The notes below the pieces were generated by a model. That model was given only the letters and a program-made list of their open reading frames with translations. It made no database searches and was not told where the DNA came from. From positions 112,225 to 176,224 of the forward strand of contig CAKZOI010000035.1 of assembly GCA_937136395.1 (NCBI GenBank): 64,000 bases of DNA. Reading direction: 5' to 3'. This document shows, in pieces, positions 50,921 to 52,855 of this stretch. The position numbers and the translations under genes were made by a program. Position 1 is the stretch's first letter; the number at the start of each line of letters is the position of its first letter. The DNA is from an uncultured Opitutia bacterium (GTDB lineage Bacteria > Verrucomicrobiota > Verrucomicrobiia > Opitutales > Coraliomargaritaceae).

Positions 50921-51286
50921 ATGAATGATAAAGAGACCTGCCTTCAAGAGATCAAAGATCGGGCGCTTGCCTTCACCAAAGAGCGCGATTGGGAGCAATT
51001 TCACTCACCCAAAAACCTTTCGATGGCGATTTCGGCGGAGGCGGCTGAGTTGATGGAGCATTTTCTCTGGCAGAGCCCGGAGCAATCGCGAGAGGACGCC
51101 CAAGGCGAAAAACTGCGTGCCAAGATCGAAGAAGAACTCTCGGATATATTTCTATTTGCAATCCAGTTCGCAAATATGACGGGAATTGATATATCTGCCG
51201 CAATCGAAGCGAAAATGAAGCGTAATGCAGAAAAGTATCCTGTCGAAAAGGCTAAAGGTCGTAGCGATAAGTATACTGAATTATAA
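50921..51286 (+). CDS. MazG-like nucleotide pyrophosphohydrolase
   Basis: 121 residues, one MazG-like/RS21-C6 domain. The metal-binding helices are SMAISAEAAELMEHFLW and KIEEELSDIFLFAIQFAN, giving the ExxE12-28ExxD pattern. It hydrolyses non-canonical or surplus NTPs, and dCTP in the RS21-C6 group. The length is that of single-domain forms. There is no operon partner. Confidence 0.87.
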   Translation: MNDKETCLQEIKDRALAFTKERDWEQFHSPKNLSMAISAEAAELMEHFLWQSPEQSREDAQGEKLRAKIEEELSDIFLFAIQFANMTGIDISAAIEAKMKRNAEKYPVEKAKGRSDKYTEL

Positions 51287-51346
51287 TGACTTACGCAGTA
51301 GGGATGTCGCATTGTGAGATTTTTTTTGAAAAAAGTGATTAAATTT

Positions 51347-51373
51347 TGAACGTCAGGCACACTAGTGCGTCTA
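51347..51373 (+). promoter_or_regulatory. ECF-sigma-like promoter, unit 1
   Basis: TGAAC at 51347-51351, a 16-base spacer, CGTCTA at 51368-51373. The boxes are identical in unit 2 (51708-51734), while the spacer between them differs at many positions. This resembles promoters read by extracytoplasmic-function sigma factors (GAAC-type -35, CGTC-type -10). A TATAAT at 51380-51385 could be an alternative -10 box, but it has no -35 partner at standard spacing. Confidence 0.5.
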
Positions 51374-51379
51374 TCTCTA

Positions 51380-51446
51380 TATAATTTGATACATAGATTT
51401 GTTGTTTGTTAAGACGCCGTCCTCAAAAGGGGCGGCGTTCTTTTTT
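51380..51446 (+). ncRNA. candidate small RNA, unit 1
   Basis: Predicted transcript of about 65 bases from roughly seven bases after the CGTCTA box to an intrinsic terminator. The terminator stem is ACGCCGTCC (51414-51422) with GGGCGGCGT (51430-51438), followed by a T tract. The leader contains TTGTTGTTTGTT, also present in unit 2. No start codon with a ribosome-binding site is seen. This is inferred from structure and duplication only. Confidence 0.5.
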
Positions 51447-51538
51447 GTTCCACTTCAATTGCTGCTTAAAACGTGGATATAATGGCGTTTTCCTCCATCT
51501 ATCAAAGGTAGCGGCAGCCCGCGACCAGTTATCAAGAA

Positions 51539-51634
51539 GGTAGCGGCGTGCGTCCCTGCGCGCCATTACAGAGCCAAAGTCCTCGCAATCGGAAACAGCT
51601 CCGACCTGTGGCGCGCAGGGACGCGCGCCGCTAC
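51539..51634. repeat. terminal-inverted-repeat element, family B
   Basis: 96 bases with ends GGTAGCGGCGTGCGTCCCTG and CAGGGACGCGCGCCGCTAC paired over about 25 bases. It lies between the two small-RNA units. A broken relative (GGTAGCGGCAGCCCGCGACC) precedes it at about 51507, and half copies are at 17734 and 57121. Confidence 0.75.
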
Positions 51635-51707
51635 ATCTAATTTACAGGCGACGGTAGGCATTCCAATGGGGCGTCTGAGTCATCGACAAAAAAAAGGAAT
51701 TAAATTT

Positions 51708-51734
51708 TGAACGCCGGGGACACGGGTGCGTCTA
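51708..51734 (+). promoter_or_regulatory. ECF-sigma-like promoter, unit 2
   Basis: TGAAC at 51708-51712, a 16-base spacer, CGTCTA at 51729-51734. The bases before (ATTAAATTT) and after (TCTCTATATAA) also match unit 1. Confidence 0.5.
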
Positions 51735-51740
51735 TCTCTA

Positions 51741-51811
51741 TATAAAACATTAGTTGTTTTGTTGTTTGTTTGTCAGAAAAGAACGTCGTTCCTAATCGAG
51801 CGGCGTTTTTT
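51741..51811 (+). ncRNA. candidate small RNA, unit 2
   Basis: Predicted transcript of about 70 bases ending in a terminator with stem AACGTCGTT (51782-51790) and AGCGGCGTT (51799-51807), followed by T residues. It shares the central motif TTGTTGTTTGTT with unit 1 but differs elsewhere, with compensating changes in the terminator stem. No reading frame is seen. Confidence 0.5.
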
Positions 51812-51829
51812 GTGCCTCAACAGAGAGGT

Positions 51830-52855
51830 CTAGATACTGAGTTGCCAGTAGAGGCTGTATCCATAGCCCAGTATAAGTGCACCTGCGATAAATTTGGGTA
51901 ATCGGCCCAAGAGTGTGACGCAGGCAAGGTTCAGCAGGGCCGCAGCTGCCAGCACTAACAGCCCAACACTGAAAAACTCAGGCAGTGGTATGGGCTTAAA
52001 GATAGCGAAAAGGCCGATGCACAACGGAATGCAAATATGCCCGTCGCCGACTTGTGAGCTATAAACGACATCAGCTCGCTTCATGTAGGCGTAGTAAAAA
52101 GCTAGGACGGCATTTGGCAGCACCATCAGCCATCCCGTTAAGAGCCCCAATTGCTTGGGGCCGAAAAATTGACCCTCACTTTGCATAATGACAGCGACCA
52201 CGCCATCGACGGCGAGCAGAGTGGCAAAGCTCGCAAGCAGGATGAGCGCGATATCGACCACAATGAGTGGGTGCCAATGGCTGTTTGTGCGTGTATTCTC
52301 CTTCAGCACCTCAAAGATATGGAAGCACTGCCAAAATAGGAACAGCCCGACCAGCGCGAAGCCGTCGAAACGGTCAATTCGGCCATCTTGTCCTAGCACC
52401 CAGACGATCAGGCTAAAGAAGATCATGGCGACCAGCGTCAGTGCCAACGAGAGGCGGTGCAGTTTCGATTCACGCAGGGTTTTTTGCGCCCGTGAATGAG
52501 GCTTGAGCTGCAAGCCCCAGATCAATGCTGGCAAAGCGAGTAACAGGCACAGATTGGTGATGTTATTTGTCCAACTATTGATCGCCACCTCCTCGGCTGG
52601 CCCGTTTTGGCTGAGCACCACCCAGACAAAGATCAAATTCCCCAAGCCTGAAAAGTAGGGCATAAAGAGGGTGCCTAGGACGGTGCCCTCAACCCCACGA
52701 TGCGACATCATTTCAAGTCGCCATAGTATCAATAGTGAGCTCAACAGAAAGATCGCCACATAGACCGCGGGTGCCCATGTGCCAGTAGCGTGATCAATCT
52801 GTATCTGTAGTGTCTCCAAGCCAATGAAGCTGAGTCGCACATCTACTTTGCGCAA
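51830..52855 (-). CDS. exchanger-like multi-pass membrane protein
   Basis: Up to 341 residues with about ten hydrophobic helices. Two regions, SWTNNITNLCLLLALPALIWG and SSQVGDGHICIPLCIGLFAIF, occupy the positions of the alpha repeats of the sodium/calcium exchanger (CaCA) family, with Asn/Asp-Gly in place of the canonical GN-x-x-GSN. I therefore call it only exchanger-like. No ATG lies near the beginning; the TTG at 52855 is used, so the true start is uncertain. It may follow the metal permease gene on the same strand (33-base gap). Confidence 0.6.
   Translation of the reverse strand: MRKVDVRLSFIGLETLQIQIDHATGTWAPAVYVAIFLLSSLLILWRLEMMSHRGVEGTVLGTLFMPYFSGLGNLIFVWVVLSQNGPAEEVAINSWTNNITNLCLLLALPALIWGLQLKPHSRAQKTLRESKLHRLSLALTLVAMIFFSLIVWVLGQDGRIDRFDGFALVGLFLFWQCFHIFEVLKENTRTNSHWHPLIVVDIALILLASFATLLAVDGVVAVIMQSEGQFFGPKQLGLLTGWLMVLPNAVLAFYYAYMKRADVVYSSQVGDGHICIPLCIGLFAIFKPIPLPEFFSVGLLVLAAAALLNLACVTLLGRLPKFIAGALILGYGYSLYWQLSI

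Follow-up and report, generated by a model that had tools for sequence, protein, structure and literature searches.

The window, that is, the whole stretch of 64,000 nucleotides analysed here, contains two related units that lie between a gene for a MazG-like nucleotide pyrophosphohydrolase (50921 to 51286, + strand; PF12643, E 4e-17) and a convergent gene for a Na/Ca-exchanger-type membrane protein downstream of unit 2 (51830 to 52855, - strand; PF01699, E 3e-13). The MazG-like gene is upstream of unit 1. Both units are on the + strand. In each, 15 variable bases separate ATTAAATTTTGAACG from CGTCTATCTCTATATAA; an AU-rich leader comes next, with TTTGTTGTTTGTT at its end, and then a GC-rich hairpin with T residues after it. 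The sequences ATTAAATTTTGAACG and CGTCTATCTCTATATAA are identical in the two units. A preliminary description of this DNA had noted paired related blocks about 360 bases apart and this is confirmed: the offset is 361 bases and the promoter segment at 51339 to 51384 shares 41 of its 46 bases with the one at 51700, the runner-up site on either strand of the 64-kb window sharing 26. Allowing up to three mismatches, CGTCTATCTCTATATAA occurs three times (0.01 expected).

Conservation and type of the promoter

The putative -35 box, TTTTGAACG, is at 51344 to 51352 in unit 1 and at 51705 to 51713 in unit 2, and the putative -10 box, CGTCTAT, is at 51368 to 51374 and 51729 to 51735, respectively. The boxes of unit 2, like those of unit 1, are conserved in relatives. 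In an alignment of 80 distinct relatives the information content per base is about 1-2 bits in the two boxes (about 2 for TTGAACG, in which six positions are invariant and one is at 99%, and 0.9-1.8 for CGTCTAT) and has a mean of about 0.3 in the fixed-length spacer. The preliminary description had named conservation of the spacer rather than the boxes as a point that would refute it, which is not what the alignment gives. Its 16-base spacer that differs between the copies holds in so far as the spacer varies across the family; the gap is 15 bases from box to box (16 if counted from GAAC to CGTC) and 10 of the 15 are equal in this pair.

The layout TGAAC-N16-CGTCTA resembles that of ECF sigma promoters. 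GAAC and TC are 18 bases apart (GAAC-N18-TC), which is exactly the geometry of RpoE (sigma-E) promoters and is conserved in relatives. The RpoE promoter has been described as GAACTT-16-TCTTA, with transcripts starting 6 bases past the -10 box (PMC9577009), and the motifs of the micA and rybB promoters are GGAACTTTT and GTCAAA (PMC1804206). The boxes of the units resemble this last pair, and relatives in family f35 carry GTCAAA exactly. Because RpoE transcripts begin 6 bases past the -10 box (PMC9577009), we placed the starts of the predicted RNAs at about this distance. This gives candidate starts at about 51381 and 51742, in agreement with the positions guessed earlier (51380 and 51741).

The promoter is strict enough to be searched for as a pattern. 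With up to one mismatch, TTGAACG-N15-CGTCTAT-N6-ATA is found in 27 of the 44 genomes of the family, and the reversed control gives none. The looser TTTTGAACG-N15-CGTCTA gives 58 matches among those listed for these 44 genomes and 11 in the control. Its exact matches are sRNA units, with one match in genome G006 that has the boxes without a clear motif or terminator. This suggests that, at strict stringency, the promoter is essentially dedicated to these RNA genes in the 44 family genomes.

Structure of the predicted RNAs

The RNA predicted for unit 1 is about 66 nt long (51381 to 51447) and that for unit 2 about 70 nt (51742 to 51812). Both fold far better than shuffled sequences, with z-scores of -3.5 and -4.1, respectively. 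The intrinsic terminator is at 51413 to 51447 in unit 1 and at 51779 to 51812 in unit 2, where a 13-bp hairpin is followed by a T-run. A simple terminator scan flagged only the former, although unit 2 folds strongly. The earlier claim that the stems are kept despite differing terminator sequences is borne out by the relatives: all 12 terminator pairs show compensatory changes and 96% of the cells in the alignment are paired, falling to 45-64% when the partner is slid by 1-3 columns. Pairing is favoured by the fitting of this alignment to the structure, but the gap from the slid control is very large.

The leader motif, a putative seed, is TTTGTTGTTTGTT at 51398 to 51410 in unit 1 and TTTGTTGTTTG at 51758 to 51768 in unit 2, where it is likewise conserved in relatives. 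As RNA it reads GUUUGUWGUUUG and it is mostly unpaired in the predicted folds (mean unpaired probability 0.62). All 46 distinct promoter matches scanned carry the G/U motif, shortened in some, and then a hairpin with a T-run; the length of the leader ranges from 10 to 24 nt between members. The motif is near-invariant in family f1, is GTTTGTAGTTTG in the large family f13 and differs between the families of the order, from GUUUGUUG to GUUUGUAG. Members from other orders of the class retain the promoter and terminator, and several of them have UCCUCCU in the leader. The f35 relatives (L271-L274) place UCCUCCU in a 5' hairpin loop (AAUCGUU...AACGAUU), with at least two copies per locus.

Each unit has the make-up expected of an independent short transcription unit, with a predicted intrinsic terminator and no conserved ORF. 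We considered a small peptide as the product and rejected it, as no common reading frame was seen among the members.

Distribution of the family

The preliminary description had proposed a covariance-model search in related genomes. A model built from 25 members finds the family in 118 of the 373 genomes of the order and in 49 of its 100 genera at E<=1e-3, where about 0.4 false positives are expected; it scores 86.0 bits at 51341 to 51450 and 84.8 bits at 51702 to 51818. A second model finds a diverged form in about 30 genomes of other orders of the class at the same threshold, suggesting that the family probably extends class-wide. A scan of 84,980 species genomes with a pattern joining promoter and leader motif gave 52 places, whose record titles are all in Verrucomicrobiota/Opitutales; Pelagicoccus mobilis and strain DG1235 are among the carriers. 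One match in viral contigs (L265, 25.9 bits), without a clear terminator, was taken as chance.

There are between one and five copies per genome, the five in genome G298 being about 180 nt apart. The hundreds of scattered copies that the preliminary description had named as a sign of a mere repeat are therefore not seen. Its 'duplicated stress-induced sRNA pair' is supported in the sRNA reading, but 'pair' is too narrow for a family with this range of copies, and 'stress-induced' would follow from the RpoE-type geometry of the promoter.

No Rfam family scored above its gathering threshold at the units in the window, and 20 further loci gave only tRNAs above threshold. A literature search for Verrucomicrobia sRNAs returned no paper. 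Taken together, the comparative data establish, at the level of sequence, a gene family with a defined box architecture, terminator structure and copy number; judged on these grounds it is a real, order-wide, multicopy family of sRNA genes with RpoE-type promoters, and it is absent from Rfam.

Candidate mode of action

Hfq (PF17209) was found above the curated cut-off in none of the 44 family genomes. A crude search near 333 gene starts (from the window and contig C22) showed no enrichment of the complement of the G/U motif, with 107 sites and 113 +/- 20 in the control, and the exact 12-mer complement is nowhere else in the genome. The lack of enrichment near starts suggests that targets may be few, and it is also compatible with a role as protein decoy.

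Shine-Dalgarno sequences are scarce upstream of starts in the window's genome (2-6%, from the 333 starts and from 232 unambiguous starts), with SD-like 5-mers upstream of 5.6% of the unambiguous starts. ACAC-type 5-mers are somewhat enriched at -20 to -4 of gene starts. A comparison of SD usage with seed type, on small samples and crude start calls, gave SD-like 5-mers at 4-23% for three genomes of f35, at 8-10% for f46 and f58 and at 0% for f59 and f62. SD scarcity has been described for some Verrucomicrobia (PMC10783764).

We consider it probable that the units encode Hfq-independent, trans-acting sRNAs with RpoE-type promoters, in several copies, each unit being a gene of its own and the G/U seed pairing with mRNAs. 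In the mechanism that we infer, from transcription through the sigma factor and stress induction to base-pairing with targets, each unit would be an independent gene for a non-coding RNA of about 65-100 nt. An ECF sigma of the RpoE/AlgU type would read TTTTGAACG-N15-CGTCTAT, so that envelope stress, or a stress like it, would bring about expression of the RNAs. Each RNA would be laid out as an AU-rich 5' leader, the mostly unpaired GUUUGUWGUUUG and the intrinsic terminator as 3' hairpin. The G/U motif would pair with A/C-rich mRNA stretches and cause repression without Hfq, and multiple copies would mean a higher dose and more varied 5' parts.

A broader version, which we put forward tentatively and think rather unlikely as a whole, is a stress response common to the class. 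The strict RpoE-type promoter would serve essentially only multicopy sRNAs, in bacteria that have few Shine-Dalgarno sites and in which no Hfq was found, and the seed would have been swapped between lineages: UCCUCCU, which can pair with SD sites, in several other orders and GUUUGUWGUUUG in the Opitutales-type order.

Alternatively, the RNAs could be decoys that titrate a protein, the repeated single-stranded UUUGUUGUUUGUU binding an RNA-binding protein (cold-shock, KH-domain or other) and the copies setting the dose. We regard this as unlikely. It would account for a short, repetitive and near-invariant motif whose complement is infrequent and not enriched at starts, for the several copies per genome and for the failure to find Hfq. 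However, the variation of the motif between families and its replacement by UCCUCCU in other orders would fit a pairing partner that changes no less well than a protein that stays the same.

A candidate cognate sigma factor

The genome of the window encodes an RpoE/AlgU-like ECF sigma (G000:C70:103697) whose best PDB match is 6in7, which we take to be AlgU. Orthologues are present in most sRNA-positive genomes across the class; the counts are 32 of 41 sRNA-positive and 8 of 21 sRNA-negative genomes (Fisher p 0.004, with phylogeny ignored), and genus g4 and family f19 have neither the sigma nor the sRNA. In genome G009 (locus L342) the genes run in one direction as MazG gene, sRNA unit, AlgU/RpoE-like sigma, membrane protein and DegP/HtrA-type protease, with the sigma gene starting about 136 nt downstream of the sRNA unit. 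A sigma gene followed by genes for a membrane protein and a DegP/HtrA-type protease is the layout of an envelope-stress operon. The RpoE/AlgU-like sigma is a plausible cognate factor of the sRNA promoters, and the units are probably the RNA arm of an envelope-stress response.

The sigma is absent from six g3 species (G015, G019, G022, G025, G028 and G033) and from G020, G136 and G219, all of which have the sRNA, and no single ECF sigma is common to all sRNA-positive genomes. Two other ECF clusters were rejected as a universal sigma: cluster 1 is nearly confined to f1, and cluster 2 is absent in g5 and in other orders. The preliminary description had also suggested looking for the same promoter upstream of an ECF sigma gene; a unit-type promoter was not found upstream of any sigma gene tested.

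The want of a common ECF sigma, together with the RpoD and group-2 sigma seen in the genomes examined and an ATATAA element after the -10 box, could mean that the RNA genes are real and that the boxes are a transcription-factor site or a primary or group-2 sigma promoter rather than an ECF promoter. We think this quite unlikely, since both boxes and their spacing match RpoE promoters, a sigma-70-like pair with 16-18 base spacing was not found, and the want of a common sigma has an ordinary explanation in the replacement of one ECF paralogue by another.

Genomic context and repeats

There are three exact promoter matches in the genome, two in the window and one on contig C71, each belonging to a full unit, and blastn recovers the same three. 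Promoter-like sites at two mismatches occur at the frequency of the reversed control, and a cloud of scattered copies is thus absent. The intergenic synteny is conserved, with units flanking the MazG-like gene in several genera. A second class of units is located between the genes for isocitrate dehydrogenase (Icd) and a ROK glucokinase, and a third is upstream of an aminotransferase gene in some g3 genomes (neighbours other than MazG were named by judging their sequence). A general role as cis-acting leader or attenuator was rejected, as unit 2 faces a convergent gene and the neighbouring genes vary from locus to locus.

In the copy on contig C71 (L073:6680-7184; compare 51329 to 51770 in the window) the upstream flank of unit 2 adjoins the RNA of unit 1 together with its downstream flank, and the interval is repeated on both sides at 83-86% identity. 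This would fit copying of a 361-bp module of unit plus interval, or its excision and re-insertion. Between the units (51540 to 51634) there is a long inverted repeat, GTAGCGGCG...CGCCGCTAC, which is found next to the third copy as well. Contig C22 has the core of this repeat, GTAGCGGC, about 30 times within 400 kb, and the repeat looks like a dispersed REP-like element. Weak, sub-threshold Rfam scores for MIR160 and MIR7526 at this position come from the inverted repeat and were discarded.

That the block is a mobile element or a mere repeat, with a terminator by chance and no RNA function, as the third copy within a duplicated 361-bp module carrying an inverted-repeat element might suggest, is very improbable and largely refuted by the low copy number, the intergenic synteny across genera, the strong covariation of the stem and the conserved boxes with a variable spacer. 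A dispersed repeat (REP/MITE) was likewise rejected, as the one to five copies per genome have conserved neighbours and do not lie at many unrelated positions. The earlier proposal of paralogous sRNA-like units under ECF-type promoters is supported by the boxes, spacer, covarying terminator, copy number and synteny.

Comparison with known systems

The general kind of RNA gene is known; what is new is the family, its dedicated promoter, the Hfq-less setting and the change of seed between orders. An order-wide family with up to five copies and a promoter strict enough for a pattern search offers an entry to sRNA control in Hfq-less, SD-scarce bacteria, and a handle on chaperone use and on the evolution of seeds where Shine-Dalgarno sites are rare. 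A structured regulatory RNA of such a kind was not found in Rfam.

In RybB the seed is at the 5' end, whereas the putative seed of the units is in the middle of the RNA and adjoins the terminator. MicA and RybB of the enterobacterial sigma-E response are also short intergenic genes (about 70-80 nt), each with an intrinsic terminator of its own and a GAAC/GTC RpoE promoter conserved across species (PMC1804206). In contrast with these, the units have no sequence relation in Rfam, are present as one to five paralogous copies, often in tandem, and are found in genomes in which no Hfq was found; a wider RpoE regulon of protein genes with the unit promoter was not found.

The G/U-rich seed of GcvB is thought to pair with C/A-rich stretches of mRNA. 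This seed, R1, is unpaired, like that of the units, and the GcvB model (RF00022) gives unit 1 a weak score of 16.6 bits (threshold 42). GcvB is three times longer and has another promoter and structure, so the units are not members.

Finally, LhrC1-5 of Listeria monocytogenes are likewise multicopy, with a repeated short unpaired seed, and do not require Hfq for target pairing (PMC4132741). They differ in being controlled by the two-component system LisRK rather than an ECF sigma, in their UCCC seed and in sequence and phylum; control by cell-envelope stress was tested in Listeria (PMC4132741) and is inferred for the units of Verrucomicrobiota. With several paralogous copies per genome sharing a predicted unpaired seed, the units are LhrC-like in this respect.
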